Part shown: piece by piece, positions 5,734-60,755 of the stretch | How the letters are laid out: every line of letters begins with the position of its first letter | How positions within the stretch are numbered: the stretch's first letter is position 1 | Origin: Starkeya sp. ORNL1 | GTDB taxonomy: Bacteria > Pseudomonadota > Alphaproteobacteria > Rhizobiales > Xanthobacteraceae | DNA length: 64,000 nucleotides | Reading direction: 5' to 3' | Assembly (NCBI RefSeq): GCF_012971745.1 | Contig: NZ_CP048834.1 | Location: forward strand, 5,403,001 to 5,467,000 | The notes under the pieces: model-generated | What the model saw: only the letters and a program-made list of their open reading frames with translations | What the model was told of the DNA's origin: nothing | Databases searched by the model: none | Position numbers and translations under genes: made by a program

Positions 5734-6066
5734 ATGTGCCACATCTTCGCGGGCCAAGCGCCCGAGACCTATGAGAGCCAGACGCGATCGGTGCGGATCG
5801 GCGGCCATTCGACGTCGATCCGGCTGGAAGCGGCGTTCTGGGCCATCCTCGAAGAGGTCGCCGCCCATCAGGGCATGAGTCTCGGCAAGTTCGTCACCAC
5901 GCTGCATGACGAGGTGCTGGAACTGCATGGGGAGGTGAGTAATTTCGCCTCGCTGCTGCGCTGCTCCTGCCTGATCTATCTCGGCGAAGTGCGCGGCAAG
6001 GCGCCCAGCGCGCCGCGCGAGATGGCGCGCCGGGCGTGCGCGAGCGAATTGCAGGCCGCTGAATGA
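5734..6066 (+). CDS. Ribbon-helix-helix domain protein
   Basis: 110-residue small protein. Residues about 16-60 (TRSVRIGGHSTSIRLEAAFW followed by a helix pair ending at GKFVTTLHDE) fit the ribbon-helix-helix domain of the RHH_4 type, widespread as single-domain proteins in Hyphomicrobiales. The C-terminal 50 residues are helical with a short hydrophobic run. The ATG at 5734 was chosen because residues upstream in the longer frame look unstructured and the family begins close to this point. It stands alone between tetR and the glyoxalase-like gene. A DNA-binding role is inferred from the fold; its target is unknown. Confidence 0.72.
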   Translation: MCHIFAGQAPETYESQTRSVRIGGHSTSIRLEAAFWAILEEVAAHQGMSLGKFVTTLHDEVLELHGEVSNFASLLRCSCLIYLGEVRGKAPSAPREMARRACASELQAAE

Positions 6067-6188
6067 GGCTCCGCCACGCCCGCCTCACAAGGGGCCGCGC
6101 GGCAATGTGCTAGCGGTCTACCACCACGCCTCGCGGGCGCGGCCTAGCATCCTCTCGATTGGCGGATTCTCGCCGAAGGAGGTGCATA

Positions 6189-7203: not shown

Positions 7204-8775
7204 ATGGCTGCACCCTTCGATCTGAATGATGATTCACTCGTCGTCATCGTCGGCTCCGGCGCCGGCGGCGGCACGCTCGGCACCGAACTCGCGCTCAAGG
7301 GCGTGAAGGTGGTGATCCTCGAGGCCGGCGCCCGGCACAGTATGGAAGACTTCGTCAACAACGAGTGGGAGAGCTTCGCGCAGCTCGCCTGGACCGACAT
7401 GCGCACCACGTCCGGTACATGGCGGGTGCACAAGAACTTCCCGAACCTGCCGGCCTGGATCGTGAAGTCGGTCGGCGGCTCGACCGTGCACTGGGCCGGC
7501 GCCTCGCTGCGCTTCCAGCCGCACGAATTCAAGACCGCCAGCACCTATGGCAATATCGACGGCGCGAACCTGCTCGACTGGCCGATCACGCTCGCCGAGC
7601 TGGAGCCCTATTACGCGCAGGCCGAGGACCGGATGGGGGTGACCCGGACCAATGGCATTCCGGGCCTGCCGGGCAACAACAACTTCAAGGTGTTCGAGGC
7701 CGGGGCCAAGAAGATCGGCTACAAGGAGGTCTCGACCGGGCGCATGGCGATCAACAGCGAGCCGCGCCACGATCGCGGTTCCTGCCAGCAGATCGGCTTC
7801 TGCTTCCAGGGCTGCAAGTCGGGTGCGAAATGGTCGACGCTGATCGCGGAGATTCCGCGCGGCGAGGCGACCGGCAATCTCGAAGTGCGCCCGCAATGCA
7901 TGGTGGTGAAGATCGAGCATGATGCGTCGGGCAAGGCGACCGGCGTGGTCTATGTCGACAAGGACGGCAAGACGCAGCGCCAGAAGGCCCGCATCGTCGC
8001 GGTCGCCGGCAACTCGATCGAGAGCCCGCGGCTGCTCTTGAATTCCGAAAGCGCGATGTTCCCGGACGGCCTCGCCAATTCCTCCGGCCAGGTCGGGCGC
8101 AACTACATGCGCCATATGACGGGCTCGGTGTACGGCATCTTCGAGAAGCCGGTGCACATGTATCGCGGCACCACCATGGCCGGGATCGTGCGCGACGAGG
8201 CGACGCCTAATACCAAGCGCGGCTTCGTCGGCGGCTATGAGATGGAGACGCTTTCCATCGGCGTGCCCTTCATGGCCGCCTTCATGGACCCCGGCGGCTG
8301 GGGCCGCTCCTTCAGCTCGGCGATGGACGGCTATGTCAACATGGCCGGCCTGTGGATCGTCGGCGAGGACATGCCGCAGGAGACCAACCGCGTCACGCTC
8401 AACACCGACGTCAAGGACAAGAACGGCATGCCGGTGGCGAACGTGCATTTCGACGACCACCCCAACGACATCGCCATGCGCAACCACGCCTACAAGCAGG
8501 GTTCGGCGATGTATGAGGCGGTGGGCGCGACGCGCACCATTCCGACGCCGCCCTATCCCTCGACGCACAATCTCGGCACCAACCGGATGAGCGAGAAGCC
8601 GCGCGACGGCGTGGTCAACAAGCACGGCCAGACCCACGACATACCGAACCTGTTCATCTCCGACGGCAGCCAGTTCACCACCGGCGGCGCCGAGAACCCG
8701 ACGCTGACCATCGTCGCGCTGGCAATCCGGCAGGCCGACTACATTGCCGGCGAGATGACGAAGAAGACCTTCTGA
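7204..8775 (+). CDS. GMC-family FAD-dependent oxidoreductase (alcohol/sugar-acid dehydrogenase large subunit)
   Basis: 523-residue glucose-methanol-choline family flavoenzyme. The FAD dinucleotide motif [17 protein letters not shown] sits near residues 17-33 with ILEAG after it. The substrate domain and the C-terminal GMC region follow, with HNLGTNRM (first catalytic-site His) and [14 protein letters not shown], where Asn replaces the second His as in other dehydrogenase-type members. A purine-rich ribosome site (GAGGGGAGGA) precedes the ATG. With the Tat-bearing small subunit directly upstream, a periplasmic dehydrogenase oxidising an alcohol, sugar or sugar acid is the best guess. The exact substrate cannot be assigned. 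Confidence 0.88.
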
Positions 8776-15594: not shown

Positions 15595-16176
15595 TCAGCC
15601 CTTGTTCTCGCCCTTCTCGCCAATGCGGTCGAGCCGCTTCTGCATCTCGGCGACCTGACGCTTGAGTTCGTCGAGATCGTCGGACTTTTCCGCCGGAATC
15701 GCACTGTCTTCGGCGCGGCCATTGGGCATGAACATCTTCATGGTGCGGTCGAAGATCTCCATGTTGCGACGCACTTGCTCTTCCATTGCGCCGAAGGCTG
15801 CAAAGCTCGGAACGCCGCCGAAGGTCTTCGCCACCTGATCGCGAAACTTCTCTTGCTCGCGCGTGAAGTTCTCGATGGAAATGTCCAGATAACGCGGCAC
15901 CAGCATTTGCATGCTGTCGCCATAGAAGCGGATGATCTGCCGGAGGAAGTTGATCGGCAGCAGGTTCTGCCCCTTACCTTCCTGCTCGAAGATGATCTGG
16001 GTGAGAACCGAGTGCGTAATATCTTCCCCGGTCTTCGCATCGTAGACGACGAAATCCTCACCGTTCTTCACCATCAGGGCGAGGTCTTCGAGCGTCACGT
16101 AGGTGCTCGTGCCGGTATTGTAGAGGCGGCGATTCGCATACTTCTTGATGGTGACGGGCTCGGTCGATTTTGCCAT
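15595..16176 (-). CDS. phaR: Polyhydroxyalkanoate synthesis repressor PhaR
   Basis: 193-residue regulator that binds PHB granules and DNA. It represses phasin and PHA genes until granules titrate it away. The N-terminal PHB/PHA accumulation DNA-binding domain is clear (TIKKYANRRLYNTGTSTYVT and VVYDAKTGEDITHSVLTQII at about residues 9-60). The second domain (about 65-130) contains FYGDSMQMLVPRYLDISIEN, and the C-terminus is a charged helix (DELKRQVAEMQKRLDRIGEK). The divergent phaA-phaB pair, 214 bp away, is the probable local target. Confidence 0.96.
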   Translation of the reverse strand: MAKSTEPVTIKKYANRRLYNTGTSTYVTLEDLALMVKNGEDFVVYDAKTGEDITHSVLTQIIFEQEGKGQNLLPINFLRQIIRFYGDSMQMLVPRYLDISIENFTREQEKFRDQVAKTFGGVPSFAAFGAMEEQVRRNMEIFDRTMKMFMPNGRAEDSAIPAEKSDDLDELKRQVAEMQKRLDRIGEKGENKG

Positions 16177-16289
16177 GTTATCCTGTCGCCTTAGTCGTTT
16201 CCCTTTGAAACACTAGGACGTTTCCAGACCGACCGCTACAGGATTGTTCGACGCACAAAATTGTCGACATGAGGCACCTCGCGACGGCA

Positions 16290-16319
16290 TTGACACGGGT
16301 CACTTGAGCCTCCCACCAT
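16290..16319 (+). promoter_or_regulatory. Possible sigma-70 promoter for phaA
   Basis: TTGACA (16290-16295), an 18-bp spacer and CACCAT (16314-16319), about 70 bp before phaA in the phaR/phaA divergent region. The -35 is perfect and the -10 is weak. No clear PhaR box was found. Confidence 0.35.
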
Positions 16320-16390
16320 GCGGCCACACATAAGCAACAACGCCGGTTCCCACGGGGCCGGTCTGCCCGTAATCCCGGAGGACGGCATTC

Positions 16391-17569
<1,179 letters not shown>

Positions 17570-17702
17570 AGCGTGCGGTATTTGGATATGCAGCCTGCGA
17601 CAAGGCGTCGAGCTTAGGACAGCCCTTGCGCCTTGTCCTCCAATGAAAAAGCCGTACAAGCCGGCGATATGCCGGGAGGGCATGTCTGAGGGGGAAGTGC
17701 AC

Positions 17703-18428
17703 ATGGGTCGAGTTGCGTTGGTGACCGGCGGCACCCGCGGGATCGGGGCCGCCGTTGCGACTGCGCTGAAAGCAGCGGGCTATTCGGTCGCCGTCAATTA
17801 TGCCGGCAATGAAGAGGCGGCGGCGCAGTTCACCGCCGCCACCGGCATTGCCGCCTTCAAATGGGACGTCTCGGATTTCGCGGCCTGCAAGGCCGGCGTC
17901 GCCGAGGTCGAGGCCAAGCTCGGTCCGGTCGAGGTGCTGGTCAATAATGCCGGCATCACCCGCGACGGCATGCTGCACAAGATGACGCCGGAACAATGGG
18001 GCGCCGTCATCAACACCAATCTGAACTCGATGTTCAACATGTGCCGCCAGGTGATCGAGGGCATGCGCGAGCGCAGCTTCGGGCGCATCGTCACCGTCTC
18101 CTCGATCAACGGTCAGAAGGGCCAAGTGGGGCAGACCAATTACTGCGCCGCCAAGGCCGGCGAGATCGGCTTCACCAAGGCGCTGGCGCAGGAGAATGCC
18201 AAGAAGGGCATCACGGTGAACGCCATTTGCCCCGGCTACATCGCCACCGAGATGGTGAAGGCGATGCCGCAGGAAGTGCTCGACAAGAACGTGCTGCCGC
18301 TCATTCCGGCGGGGCGGCTGGGCGAGCCGGACGAGGTGGCGCGCTGCGTGGTGTTCCTCGCCTCGGACGAGGCGAGCTTCATCACCGGCTCGACCCTCAC
18401 CGCCAATGGCGGGCAATACATGGTGTGA
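17703..18428 (+). CDS. phaB: Acetoacetyl-CoA reductase
   Basis: 241-residue short-chain dehydrogenase that reduces acetoacetyl-CoA to (R)-3-hydroxybutyryl-CoA with NADPH, giving the PHB monomer. It has the cofactor motif TGGTRGIGA (residues 8-16), NNAGITRD, and catalytic Ser133/134 with Tyr147 and Lys151 (YCAAK). The ATG at 17703 gives exactly the usual 241-residue length and follows a GAGGGGGA ribosome site; the frame extends 20 codons further upstream. It pairs with phaA just upstream. Confidence 0.97.
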   Translation: MGRVALVTGGTRGIGAAVATALKAAGYSVAVNYAGNEEAAAQFTAATGIAAFKWDVSDFAACKAGVAEVEAKLGPVEVLVNNAGITRDGMLHKMTPEQWGAVINTNLNSMFNMCRQVIEGMRERSFGRIVTVSSINGQKGQVGQTNYCAAKAGEIGFTKALAQENAKKGITVNAICPGYIATEMVKAMPQEVLDKNVLPLIPAGRLGEPDEVARCVVFLASDEASFITGSTLTANGGQYMV

Positions 18429-57390: not shown

Positions 57391-58176
57391 CTAGCCCTTC
57401 GCCAGCATCTCCAGCGCGGCATCGTGCACCCGGCGGTCGCCGGAAACGACGACACGCCCGCCGCCCACGGCCGGATCACCCGACCAATCGGTGACGATGC
57501 CGCCCGCGCCTTCGATGATCGGGATCAGCGGCACGATGTCGTGGTCCTGCAGATTGGTCTCGATGACGAGGTCGACATGGCCGGCGGCGACCATGCAATA
57601 GGCGTAGCAGTCGCCGCCATAGCGGGACATGCGCACATGCTCCTCGACCACTTCGAAGCGGGCGCGGTCCGCCTCGTTCATCAAGCGCGGGCTGGTCGTC
57701 ACCATCAGCGCATCGCCGAGGCTGCCGCAGGCGCGCACCCCGAGCTTGCGCTCGCCTGCGGGTCCGCGATAGCGGGCGCCGTCGCCATCGCCGTAGAAGC
57801 GTTCGCGGATGAAGGGCTGGTGCATCATGCCGTAGACCGGCCGGCCATTGCGGACGAGGCCGATCAGCGTGCCCCAGGCCGGCATGCCGGCGATGAAGGA
57901 CTTGGTGCCGTCGATCGGATCGAGCATCCAGACGAACTCGGCGTCGGGGCGCTCATTGTCGTATTCCTCGCCGATGACGCCATGACCCGGGAAATTGCGC
58001 CGGATCAGCGCGCGCATCGCCTGTTCGGCGGCGCGGTCGGCAGCGGTGACGGGATCGAAGGCGGCGCCGCGGCTCTTGTCCTCGACGCCGAGCGCGGTGC
58101 GGAAGAAGGGCAGGATCGCCTGGCCGGAGACATCGGCAAGCTCATGGACGAAGGCTTCGAAGTCCACGGCGCCCAT
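57391..58176 (-). CDS. hisN: Histidinol-phosphatase, inositol-monophosphatase family (HisN/SuhB-like)
   Basis: 261-residue Mg-dependent phosphatase. It has the family metal-binding motifs GEEYDNERP, WMLDPIDGTKSFIAGMPAWG and the C-terminal NLQDHDIVPLIPIIEGAGGI with the catalytic Asp. By sequence style it fits the HisN group that dephosphorylates histidinol phosphate in alphaproteobacteria; inositol monophosphatase (SuhB) is the alternative. The ATG at 58176 (MGAVDFEAFVHELADVSGQA) is the family start; the upstream open frame is spurious. The small-RNA array starts 226 bp away on the opposite strand. Confidence 0.87.
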   Translation of the reverse strand: MGAVDFEAFVHELADVSGQAILPFFRTALGVEDKSRGAAFDPVTAADRAAEQAMRALIRRNFPGHGVIGEEYDNERPDAEFVWMLDPIDGTKSFIAGMPAWGTLIGLVRNGRPVYGMMHQPFIRERFYGDGDGARYRGPAGERKLGVRACGSLGDALMVTTSPRLMNEADRARFEVVEEHVRMSRYGGDCYAYCMVAAGHVDLVIETNLQDHDIVPLIPIIEGAGGIVTDWSGDPAVGGGRVVVSGDRRVHDAALEMLAKG

Positions 58177-58366
58177 GTCGTTCCCCCGGTTCGCGCCCCA
58201 GTTCGCGCGTTGGCCGATTTCCTTATCCGCCGCTGCGGGCGACGGCAACGTCCTCTTCGCGCGCGAAGGCCAAGATCGTGAACGAAGGCGAAGCGACGGC
58301 GCAGAGCCCGGCGTCTGGCGCATGGCTGCCATCTCGCCCTGCCGCGCAATTGGGCATGCCTAAGAC

Positions 58367-58395
58367 TTGCTATCGGGAAGCCGTGCTGCCATATT
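58367..58395 (+). promoter_or_regulatory. Promoter of small RNA copy 1
   Basis: TTGCTA (58367-58372), 17-bp spacer, CATATT (58390-58395). Copies 2 and 3 have the same TTGnnn-17-CATnTT layout at the same distance from the conserved RNA. Confidence 0.75.
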
Positions 58396-58401
58396 CTTGC
58401 A

Positions 58402-58500
58402 GCGCGAGGACGCGATTGGCGTCGCGTTCCCGCCGCCCTCCTTGGGCGTTTCCTCCCTAGACTTGGGCCGCTCCGCTTGCGTGAGCGGCCCCTTTCTTTT
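58402..58500 (+). ncRNA. suhB/alpha-r8 (MmgR)-like small RNA, copy 1
   Basis: About 99 nt. Stem I: CGCGA (58411-58415) with TCGCG (58422-58426) around a conserved TTGGCG loop, extended by GGA/TCC and GCG/CGC. Stem II: GCCC-tcctt-GGGC (58435-58447), showing CCTCCTT. Then the single-stranded decamer TTTCCTCCCT (58449-58458), and a terminator GGGCCGCTC / GAGCGGCCC (58465-58491) with T-run CCTTTCTTTT. Both C-rich stretches are complementary to Shine-Dalgarno sequences. The decamer and location beside a suhB-type gene match what I recall of Rfam suhB and S. meliloti MmgR. Confidence 0.85.
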
Positions 58501-58722
58501 CTGCCAAGTGCTTGGATTCCGGCAATAAATGCTTGAGTTCCGATGGCTGGGAAAGATCGCGTGAGGCTCGGCCACCTCCTGTTGCGACGGATGTCCTGCC
58601 GGGTTAGGAAAGCCTAGGTGCGTCCCTCAGGGAAGGGAAGGCGTCTCGCGCGTCTGGCGCGCGTTTTAGCGCATTCGCGCTTCAGCGGTTGACTGCTACT
58701 TTCATTTCTTTCGCTTTTTTCC

Positions 58723-58751
58723 TTGTATTTTGTACGCCACAATGGCATATT
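58723..58751 (+). promoter_or_regulatory. Promoter of small RNA copy 2
   Basis: TTGTAT (58723-58728), 17-bp spacer, CATATT (58746-58751). The -10 is identical to that of copy 1, while the spacer between differs freely. Confidence 0.75.
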
Positions 58752-58757
58752 GCTGCA

Positions 58758-58855
58758 ATGCGGTGCGCGATTGGCGTCGTGCCCGCTGCCCTCCTTGGGC
58801 GTTTCCTCCCTAGACTTGGGCCGCTCCGTTCGCGTGAGCGGCCCCTTTCTTTTTT
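58758..58855 (+). ncRNA. suhB/alpha-r8 (MmgR)-like small RNA, copy 2
   Basis: About 98 nt. Stem I: GCGG-t-GCGCGA (58760-58770) with TCGTGCCCGC (58777-58786) around loop TTGGCG; a G-U pair and changed bases compared with copy 1 keep pairing. Stem II GCCC/GGGC (58788-58800), decamer TTTCCTCCCT (58802-58811), terminator GGGCCGCTC / GAGCGGCCC (58818-58844) and a T-run to 58855. From stem II to the terminator it is identical to copy 3. Confidence 0.87.
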
Positions 58856-58974
58856 GGGCGGTCCCTGGCGCGGGGTGCTGCCGGTGCTGTCCCCTTCAGC
58901 GTGGGTGGCAGGGCACCTTCTGGCTGCGATTGCCAATTTGTCGCACGATCAGCCGAATTTTCGGAGCTTCCGCA

Positions 58975-59157
58975 GTGTCGTCCCCGGTTATCCCCGGCGA
59001 GACACGGGTCATTCTTGATATTGCAAAGAAATACGCCGAGCCGCAGGTCTTGATCCCGGGGCTCGGCGGTAAAAGCGGAAGCATGCTCGCGGCAATAAAG
59101 TCACACCTTTCCGGCTATCGCTGGGGTGGTGCGCCTGGAATGCGCGATATGCCTTGA
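58975..59157 (+). CDS. Possible small protein (60 residues), unsupported
   Basis: A GTG-started frame between small RNA copies 2 and 3 encodes VSSPVIPGETRVILDIAKKY... ending GAPGMRDMP. A weak GGAG lies about 9 bases upstream. It has protein-like composition (alternating hydrophobic and charged residues) but third-position GC is clearly lower than in neighbouring genes, and I recognise no family. It could be a transferred fragment or chance. Its stop overlaps the -35 region of copy 3. Confidence is low. Confidence 0.25.
   Translation: MSSPVIPGETRVILDIAKKYAEPQVLIPGLGGKSGSMLAAIKSHLSGYRWGGAPGMRDMP
59034..59068. repeat. Inverted repeat between small RNAs 2 and 3
   Basis: CGCCGAGCC (59034-59042) and GGCTCGGCG (59060-59068), 9 perfect pairs with a 17-base loop. 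No T-tract follows. It lies within the doubtful small frame at 58975-59157. Confidence 0.4.
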
Positions 59158-59182
59158 TTATTCCGCAATGCACACGCATCTT
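59154..59182 (+). promoter_or_regulatory. Promoter of small RNA copy 3
   Basis: TTGATT (59154-59159), 17-bp spacer, CATCTT (59177-59182). It has the same geometry as copies 1 and 2, with one change in the -10. Confidence 0.72.
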
Positions 59183-59188
59183 GCAGAT

Positions 59189-59285
59189 CGTACGGTAGCG
59201 ATTGGCGTCGCTCCGTACTGCCCTCCTTGGGCGTTTCCTCCCTAGACTTGGGCCGCTCCGTTCGCGTGAGCGGCCCCTTTCTTTT
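59189..59285 (+). ncRNA. suhB/alpha-r8 (MmgR)-like small RNA, copy 3
   Basis: About 97 nt. Stem I is GTACGG-t-AGCGA (59190-59201) with TCGCTCCGTAC (59208-59218) around loop TTGGCG. Its base pairs differ from copies 1 and 2 but all are complementary. Stem II GCCC/GGGC (59220-59232), decamer TTTCCTCCCT (59234-59243), terminator GGGCCGCTC / GAGCGGCCC (59250-59276) with a T-run to 59285. It has its own promoter, so the three are separate transcription units. Confidence 0.87.
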
Positions 59286-59565
59286 CAGCGCTACGTCTCG
59301 CGGGTCGGCTCTTTGTTGCGGCCGAACTCTCACTGCGACGTCACCGAGCGCCTCAAGGCGGGCTCCGCACGCTTGAGCCGACGTTTCCCTGCCGCTGAAA
59401 ACTCCGCGGTCTGGCCCCAATATTTTGAGGGGGAAGCGTTCGGCTGAACCGAGCGTGCAGAATTCGTATATCTCTCATGTCCAAATTGCAAGGCTCTTGT
59501 GCGGCATTTCGCATCGCCCGATCAAAATTTCGTAGGATCCGGCTTAAGTGTTTGCAATGAAATGA

Positions 59566-60456
59566 TTATTCGGCTGCGGTGCGCAGCGGCGCGAGGTGCA
59601 GCTGGTCGATTTTCATCAGGGCCTCGGCAACTTCGAGGAGGTTGCGGCGTACCTCGTCGAAGCGCGGGGAGGGCTGATAGCTGCGCTCATCCATATAAAG
59701 CGCACGGTTGATCTCGATCTGCACGGCATGCATGCCGGAGGCGGGGTTGCCGTAATGCTCGGTGATGAATCCGCCAGCATAAGGCTTGTTGCGCACCACC
59801 GCGAAGCCGCGCCGGCGCAGCTCCAGTTCCAGCACGTCGGTAATGACGCCGGCGCAACTGGTGCCGTAGCGGTCGCCGAGCACGATATCGGTACGCGCCC
59901 GCTCGTCGCGGTGGCCGGTGTTCGAGGGCATGGAGTGGCAATCGATCAGCACGGCGAGGCCGAAGCCGCGCTGCATCTGCACCATCATCCGTCGCAGGGC
60001 GCGGTGATAGGGCTTGTAGAAATTCTCGATGCGGGTGATCGCCTCGTCCACCGGGATGCGGCGGCCATAGATCTCCTGCGCCTCGCCGACGATGCGGGCC
60101 ACGGTGCCGAGGCCGCCGGAGACCCGCATCGAGCGGGTATTGGCGTAGGCCGGCAGGCGGCCTTCGAACATGCGCGGGTCGAGCTCATAGGGCTCGCGAT
60201 TCACATCGACATAGCAGCGCGGGAAATGCGCACGCATGAACGGCATGCCCACTTCGGTCACAGCGCTGAACAGCGTGTCGACGAAGGTGTCCTCGGAGCG
60301 GCGCAGGCTCTGCAGGTCGAGGCGCGCCTGCTCGACGAAGGCCTTGGGATAGATGATGCCGCTGTGCGGGGAGTTGAACAGGAAGGGTGCCGCGATCGTC
60401 GACGGCTCAGCCACCTCGAAGGGCGGGTCGATCATCTCCGCGACGACAGCCATCAT
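59566..60456 (-). CDS. N-formylglutamate amidohydrolase family protein
   Basis: 296-residue zinc-dependent amidohydrolase. The family start FLFNSPHSGIIYPKAFVEQA, the RAHFPRCYVDVNREPYELDP region, LIDCHSMPSNTG and VQIEINRALYMDE match the FGase family (HutG/YbaK-like), which hydrolyses N-formylglutamate at the end of histidine degradation or acts on related acyl-amino acids. No other hut gene is nearby, so the true substrate is open. It is divergent from cpdR with 299 bp between them, an adjacency I recall from other Hyphomicrobiales. Confidence 0.88.
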   Translation of the reverse strand: MMAVVAEMIDPPFEVAEPSTIAAPFLFNSPHSGIIYPKAFVEQARLDLQSLRRSEDTFVDTLFSAVTEVGMPFMRAHFPRCYVDVNREPYELDPRMFEGRLPAYANTRSMRVSGGLGTVARIVGEAQEIYGRRIPVDEAITRIENFYKPYHRALRRMMVQMQRGFGLAVLIDCHSMPSNTGHRDERARTDIVLGDRYGTSCAGVITDVLELELRRRGFAVVRNKPYAGGFITEHYGNPASGMHAVQIEINRALYMDERSYQPSPRFDEVRRNLLEVAEALMKIDQLHLAPLRTAAE

Positions 60457-60755
60457 AGAGCCGGCCGATCACCTGATGCCCGGGTTGCGCAAGACGAGCG
60501 AACTGCGGGACACGAGGTCCGGTGCGGTTCGCCGCGTATCCCTCTTGTCTAGCACGCCCTCGCCGGGCGCGGAATGCCGATGCGCTGCCGGCTTTGCGCT
60601 TGTGATCGCAAGAAAATGGCCACGAAATGGCGACCAAGAAGCAACCACCAGCACAGGCGCGATGTGCTAATCACGCCGAGGGCATCGCGCGTCGATTCGC
60701 GCGCAAGCACATGTGCGGGCGTGCGAACCGCGAAGGGACGAGAGGTGGTTGGGGG

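Follow-up and report, generated by a model that had tools for sequence, protein, structure and literature searches.

Three adjacent small RNA (sRNA) genes on the plus strand at positions 58402–59285 of the window, the 64,000-nt stretch of DNA analyzed here, are members of the alphaR8/MmgR family and lie at the family's usual locus. We infer their transcription, PhaR binding, Hfq use, targets, and effect, and consider it probable that they are three paralogous genes for trans-acting sRNAs, each read from its own promoter, bearing an anti-Shine-Dalgarno (anti-SD) seed that works with Hfq, and repressed by PhaR. Family membership, predicted structure, synteny, a triplet in every genus genome searched, position-specific promoters, PhaR-type motifs, and a phaR gene are established by the analysis.

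A cmscan search, which keeps the best match where clan relatives overlap, places all three copies well above the 41-bit gathering score of RF00519 (suhB/MmgR, alphaR8), the suhB family that Rfam describes as 'Makes More Granules Regulator RNA (mmgR)'. Copy 1 (predicted ends 58402..58500, plus strand) matches at 58428–58506 with 64.7 bits, copy 2 (58757..58853, plus) at 58781–58859 with 67.3 bits, and copy 3 (59189..59284, plus) at 59213–59291 with 65.8 bits; the fold contributes to each assignment. A repeat search (minimum 14 nt) recovers a 79-nt family at 58425, 58778, and 59210, with 94% and 87% identity to the first member, and a 14-nt family around TTGGCG at 58411, 58766, and 59197. Together with the cmscan matches, these bear out the unit positions given in the initial annotation. 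Its statement that the spacers are unrelated also holds, since they have no three-copy repeat in common and the other five direct-repeat families in 57400–60500 comprise two copies each. The core had been called identical through to the terminator stem; this is correct up to the terminator loop, which reads CGCTTGCG in copy 1 and CGTTCGCG in copies 2 and 3.

Both flanking genes lie on the minus strand. The divergent neighbor at 57391..58332 is an inositol monophosphatase gene (suhB-like; PF00459), and the convergent neighbor at 59566..60456 encodes an N-formylglutamate amidohydrolase (PF05013); each has a tblastn match in 24 of 24 congener loci. An alphaR8 gene adjoins the amidohydrolase gene in most species (PMC12559287), and according to the 2005 description, the RNA is probably transcribed from the strand opposite suhB and many genomes hold more than one copy (PMC1273637). 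The window thus shows the features of the family's main locus, with the amidohydrolase gene adjoining the units and the units on the strand opposite suhB. The family named in the initial annotation, suhB/alpha-r8/MmgR, was right, given both the scores and the typical amidohydrolase neighbor, and the proposed covariance search succeeded for all three copies. A prophage or mobile origin of the window copies was considered and rejected on account of the synteny in 24 of 24 congeners. Profiles for NusG-like proteins and the large terminase (TerL) found no match in a further 45 loci, of which 44 are host loci, some of them overlapping, and one is the phage record L167.

Each unit is predicted to fold into three hairpins and an unpaired CCTCCCT stretch, in the order 5′ hairpin, weak hairpin, unpaired stretch, and terminator. 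Folding z-scores range from −5.0 to −5.2, and none of 200 shuffles is as stable. By sequence and predicted fold, the 10-mer UUUCCUCCCU lies unpaired downstream of the weak hairpin, a described feature of the family (PMC12559287), and a rho-independent terminator closes every unit. The first stem had been reported to change in every copy yet stay paired, and this had been taken as a sign of selection on structure. The pairings are as described, with gapless outward pairing from the loop breaking at bulges in some units, and the covariation holds over 25 genomes, where it is carried by copies 1 and 2. Among 75 units from 25 genomes of the genus (44 distinct hairpins with an invariant TTGGCG loop), 86.6% of 5′ stem pair cells are paired compared to 69.2% in shuffles, and both-sided changes number 97 compared to 39.4; none of 2000 shuffles did as well by either count. 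The signal is present in copy 1 and in copy 2 taken separately. The stem of copy 3 varies too little to be informative (84.0% paired vs 82.6%, 269 of 2000 shuffles; both-sided cells 2 vs 1.2, 632 of 2000). Sliding one arm by 1–3 bases (pairs 4–9) lowers pairing from 0.81 to 0.35–0.52. These results argue for selection on the structure of the 5′ stem. The TTGGCG loop occurs in 1 of 13 further units (L150, in the set L141–L152 of other families and extra congener copies), several of which show a different 5′ stem by eye.

The initial annotation had also proposed a search for copy number in relatives. We searched 41 genomes: the window's own, 24 of its genus, and 16 from other families of the order. 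RF00519 matches at an E-value of 0.001 in 37 of the 41 and above the cut-off in 33. Within the genus, the cluster comprises exactly three units in all 25 genomes searched, lying between matches to both flanking genes in 24 of 24 congeners; some congeners carry additional copies elsewhere. The window genome itself holds two further copies above the cut-off and two weak matches. The two distal copies, at G000:C1:4242034 (L037) and G000:C1:480900 (L038), have a common upstream region, including GTTC-N7-GAAC, that differs from those of the tandem three; the copy at 480900 lies in a region with catalase-like and ECF-sigma-like genes, as read by eye. A prophage origin was rejected for both, their neighbors appearing to be of metabolic or stress type with no phage gene seen by eye and no match to the NusG-like or TerL profiles. 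The weak matches, both below the cut-off, are at G000:C1:2945033 (L006) and G000:C1:6266130 (L007); the former, which reads CGTTTCCTCTCAAGACTT, is possibly a diverged or related sRNA.

A predicted −35/−10 pair with a 17-nt spacer precedes each of the three window copies on the plus strand. The elements are TTGCTA and CATATT for copy 1 (58367..58395), TTGTAT and CATATT for copy 2 (58723..58751), and TTGATT and CATCTT for copy 3 (59154..59182). Across the 25 genomes, mean pairwise identity between promoters at the same position is 0.698, 0.484, and 0.908 for copies 1, 2, and 3, respectively, and identity between promoters at different positions is 0.20–0.35, whether within one genome or between two. 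Since promoters resemble each other by position and not between neighbors, the promoter sequence is kept in a position-specific manner, most clearly in copy 3. A dyad, TGGTATGCCA, lies upstream of the copy 3 promoter at 20 of the 25 genus loci (the congener loci being L117–L140); those without it are the window's own locus, L119, L122, L134, and L137. It is possibly a second regulator site.

The terminators follow a different pattern, being closer between copies within a genome than across genomes (2, 0, and 0 of 5000 permutations for the three pairs; parses of copy 2 in L130 and copy 1 in L134 were shortened by the pattern used). In two genomes, G007 and G010 (L123 and L126), the same unusual terminator loop occurs in all three copies. 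With genomes thinned by upstream identity, the signal stands in 13 genomes (14, 1, and 0 of 5000), is weak in 7 (808, 42, and 406), and in 4 persists weakly for a single pair and has disappeared for the other two (3332, 210, and 1645). The core gives a weaker sign of homogenization, with 6 and 41 of 5000 permutations for two pairs and none for the third. The terminators may thus be homogenized within genomes; given that the thinning was by upstream identity and that small sets have little power, we regard gene conversion as no more than likely.

In Sinorhizobium meliloti, PhaR/AniA represses mmgR and binds its promoter in vitro, and the motif core is YGCRNYGCR (PMC12542648). Our statements about PhaR all rest on exact matches to this 9-base core; the full 21-base consensus with its AT-rich arms has no exact match in the window. 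The core occurs at all three window promoters on the plus strand: once in copy 1 (TGCAGCGCG, 58398..58406, over the predicted start), as two overlapping sites at the predicted start of copy 2 (58754..58767), and once in copy 3 (CGCAATGCA, 59164..59172, inside the promoter spacer). Upstream motifs are found in 21, 25, and 23 of 25 genus genomes for copies 1, 2, and 3, respectively, these genomes being related and not independent, compared to a chance rate of 16.2% for window stretches of the scanned length (112 bp). Within the genus, the motif of copy 1 sits at the predicted start and that of copy 3 in the spacer; copy 2 has it at one of these two places or at both. The copy 2 spacer site, found in 10 of the 25 genus genomes, lacks an exact match in the window.

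We extended the comparison to the order with 60 stretches (L171–L230) from 52 of the 91 genomes with strong matches (121 searched), picked to spread over genera; L221 yielded no unit under the pattern used, and the sample holds 71 units in all. Fifty-seven of the 71 units have the motif, compared to 1.8 expected from mononucleotide shuffles or to its presence in 11.9% of 82-bp window stretches. In 53 of the 57 it falls within the two usual ranges, and in 4 only elsewhere; the start range is occupied in 36 of 71 units, and both ranges in 25. The motif is absent from the remaining 14 units, and several tandem arrays outside the genus combine a copy that carries it with a neighbor that does not, so PhaR control is not universal. 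In the genus there are only 8 motif pairs, 5 of them spaced 21–23 bp. A phaR gene (PHB_acc_N match) is present in 51 of the 52 order-sample genomes, and in the sole genome without it (G046), a single case, the sRNA copy has no motif. The window's own phaR gene (PHB accumulation regulator; PF07879, PF05233), the candidate regulator of all three copies, lies at 15595..16176 on the minus strand. Together with thiolase and reductase genes in phaA/phaB order, it occupies 15595–18428, about 40 kb from the sRNAs, and this is probably a PHB synthesis locus.

The initial annotation had proposed that CCTCCTT and CCTCCC could bind ribosome sites, which is consistent with what has been reported for the 10-mer UUUCCUCCCU, a sequence that serves as the pairing site for Caulobacter SisA and its sponge CrfA (PMC12559287). 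Our target predictions are based on exact seed complements and three phasin genes. The exact complement of the 10-mer occurs 11 times in the genome, compared to 0 times for a reversed control pattern. Five of the 11 are the opposite strand of the five sRNA copies, and four of the remaining six are followed by the ATG of a plausible gene, which starts 12–15 nt after the first base of the 10-mer. From their translations, the genes at these complements appear to include a solute-binding protein and an FAD-type oxidase. No firm candidate for a sponge RNA was found among the exact complements. Predicted pairing at the ribosome site of the first phasin gene is −15.5 kcal/mol, with 2.5% of 79 background sites as good. 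The second gives −16.7 kcal/mol (1.3% of background) at an internal in-frame ATG that is the best of several tried, a choice that favors low energies, and the third gives only −10.5 kcal/mol (24% of background). Pairing with numerous ribosome sites is expected of any anti-SD seed, so these target predictions are weak.

Under the reading we favor, each copy would produce, from its own promoter, an RNA of ~98 nt comprising the covarying 5′ hairpin, the weak hairpin, whose loop contains CCUCC, the seed UUUCCUCCCU in single-stranded form, and the intrinsic terminator. The probable partners of the seed are the Shine-Dalgarno regions of target mRNAs, with the phasin genes and the solute-binding protein of an uptake system as candidates. 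With the help of Hfq, pairing would lower translation, the presumed effect being repression of storage and uptake genes. PhaR probably represses each copy, and accumulation of PHB would release transcription. The putative operator of copy 1 lies at the start site and that of copy 3 in the spacer, and copy 2 has one at the start site and, in a subset of congeners, one in the spacer; because the operator position differs between copies, they may respond with different strength or jointly with other regulators. In S. meliloti, MmgR is also activated by NtrC.

Between the two roles first suggested for the three copies, dosage or separate conditions of expression, our results favor separate control, since a separate promoter and terminator are predicted for every copy and the promoters are position-specific; dosage may still play a part, because the core is nearly identical among copies. 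In its strong form, the copies would be redundant and serve dosage only, like the Qrr sRNAs of Vibrio, which are co-regulated, and the promoter differences would be drift. The almost invariant core (identity 0.96–0.99 between copies of one genome) fits this account, as do the terminators, whose closer likeness within genomes is expected if conversion equalizes the copies, and, weakly, the 5′ hairpins of copies 1 and 2 (0.697 within a genome vs 0.666, 8 of 5000 permutations). Promoter conservation, however, follows position and is not common to the copies. The identity of 0.908 for the copy 3 promoter over 25 genomes is far above that of the little-conserved sequence after the terminators (0.23–0.37), and the copy 3 hairpin differs from those of copies 1 and 2 (identity 0.46–0.47). 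We think pure redundancy rather unlikely.

The PhaR-type motifs could likewise be a by-product of RNA structure or of GC-rich composition and not operators. The window holds about one match per 571 bp, and the start-site motif extends over the 5′ end of the RNA and into stem 1, so that constraint on the transcribed sequence could be partly behind it. The spacer motif, however, lies upstream of the predicted start and is present in 42 of 71 order-sample units, and 25 of 43 motif pairs in that sample are spaced 19–22 bp, with 21 the commonest (13). Copies of the RNA in phages and viral contigs, described below, provide a further comparison. Many keep the GTGCGG 5′ end, yet the motif occurs in 1 of 77 units between −76 and −33 and in 2 of 77 anywhere upstream (90–95 nt examined; only 36 nt in L070). 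PhaR binding to mmgR of S. meliloti (PMC12542648) also speaks for operators, and we regard the by-product account as improbable. Far less credible still is that the units are cis-acting leaders or attenuators of a neighboring gene. RF00519 was indeed first recognized upstream of a suhB-like gene, but its original authors considered a cis role unlikely on similar grounds (PMC1273637): both neighboring genes here run opposite to the units, and every unit has a terminator of its own. Three trans-acting sRNA genes with their own promoters, probably repressed by PhaR, remain our preferred reading.

Relatives of these RNAs also occur in viral sequence. A search of IMG/VR for the exact 24-nt core returned 75 stretches (L042–L116), and blastn returned two phage records and 31 plasmid records. 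Nine phage or viral-contig loci were scanned, and all score above the Rfam gathering threshold. HNH, terminase, and portal genes follow closely after the RNA in Bradyrhizobium phage ppBeUSDA76-1. An alphaR8 sRNA is at 7981–8096 of OP596613.1 (L166), and IMG/VR pieces with one include L046, L066, L074, L092, and L114. Nine of 10 chosen upstream proteins match Pfam NusG, eight above the curated cut-off, and the two of them scanned against PHROGs match a transcription antiterminator family. Eight downstream proteins scanned against PHROGs match HNH, terminase, and neck-type families, with one (L066:9021) mainly of unknown function. A NusG-like profile built from the ten chosen proteins finds a gene at most 600 nt upstream in 30 of the 61 contigs that extend at least 900 nt upstream (20 of 51 outside the profile set), and TerL lies within 3.5 kb downstream in 23 of 46 contigs with at least 2.5 kb downstream, four of which served in its profile. 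Both are present in 17 of 36 contigs with room on both sides; about half of the testable contigs do not have the NusG-like/terminase layout. The 76 contigs form 66 groups, and their viral nature at the site is judged from the NusG-like and TerL genes. The record named Microcystis phage Mwe-JY08 (PP395640.1, L167) carries an alphaR8 sRNA at 5994–6077, above the Rfam cut-off; since Alphaproteobacteria are the group from which the family is known, the phage may in fact have an alphaproteobacterial host.

By eye, the phage copies show no convincing −35 box, and their RNA is possibly a processed read-through transcript. In phage lambda, Q is followed by the late promoter and the 6S RNA, and the position of the phage alphaR8 RNA resembles this layout; it is possibly a late-operon leader that doubles as a host-type sRNA. 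We tentatively suggest, at somewhat less than even odds, that alphaR8 RNA is a regulatory currency of host and phage. Host copies would be gated by the carbon store through PhaR, with operators often paired two helical turns apart and differing among the genus triplet, and tailed-phage copies without PhaR sites would be terminated leaders between a NusG-like antiterminator gene and the packaging operon, like lambda 6S or StxS. If so, a prophage or infecting phage would supply a host-type sRNA outside PHB control. The phage copies suggest viral exploitation of the same RNA.

A key evolutionary paper, Lagares 2016, is cited for duplication and lateral transfer, so part of the copy-number and mobile-copy picture may be known. 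Published work already covers the family, its occurrence in multiple copies, and the control of S. meliloti mmgR by PhaR (PMC12559287, PMC7143759, PMC8401924, PMC12542648, PMC1273637, PMC7873438, PMC12197685). Multi-copy and adjacent alphaR8 genes are thus already known; the genus-wide conserved triplet and its predicted per-copy control are what this analysis adds. In the literature surveyed on the family and on phage sRNAs, we met no account of paired PhaR-type sites or phage alphaR8 copies, and a term search of the main text of a 2025 phage sRNA review found no mention of suhB, mmgR, rhizob, or alphaproteobacteria (PMC12197685). Why sibling sRNAs are kept is not understood in all instances, according to the Caulobacter study (PMC12559287). 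With three adjacent copies that have the same seed but separate promoters, present in each of the 25 genus genomes searched, the locus offers a compact test of this question, and the order-wide PhaR-type sites suggest a simple rule for when alphaR8 RNAs are made.

Comparison with known systems places the locus among these relatives. StxS of Stx phages, an Hfq sRNA that is a short terminated RNA between a late promoter and terminator (PMC7873438), resembles only the phage copies, and does so in position; phage alphaR8 often adjoins a NusG-like gene, and its transcription is presumed. The AbcR1/AbcR2 pair (alphar15) also consists of tandem sRNAs that bind Hfq, carry anti-SD motifs, and partly resemble suhB (PMC7143759), Hfq binding being a property of AbcR that we only infer here. 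Its neighbors, SMc01226 and lsrB (PMC7143759), differ from those of the present units. AbcR identity appears unlikely, RF00519 being the only match listed per unit among the library's models and the best where clan relatives overlap. MmgR of S. meliloti has the same RF00519 match, seed UUUCCUCCCU, terminator, accompanying PHB regulator gene, and PhaR-type site in the promoter spacer (here in copy 3). MmgR is, however, the sole alphaR8 sRNA of that species (PMC12559287), compared to three in tandem and two elsewhere above the cut-off here, and one PhaR site is listed for mmgR (PMC12542648), whereas start-site motifs are present here too. In Caulobacter crescentus, where CrfA acts as a sponge (our search for one covered exact seed complements only), SisA–D are siblings with the same seed and unrelated promoters, and one copy adjoins the N-formylglutamate amidohydrolase gene, as here (PMC12559287). 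The Caulobacter copies occupy separate genome sites (PMC12559287), whereas the three described here are adjacent.
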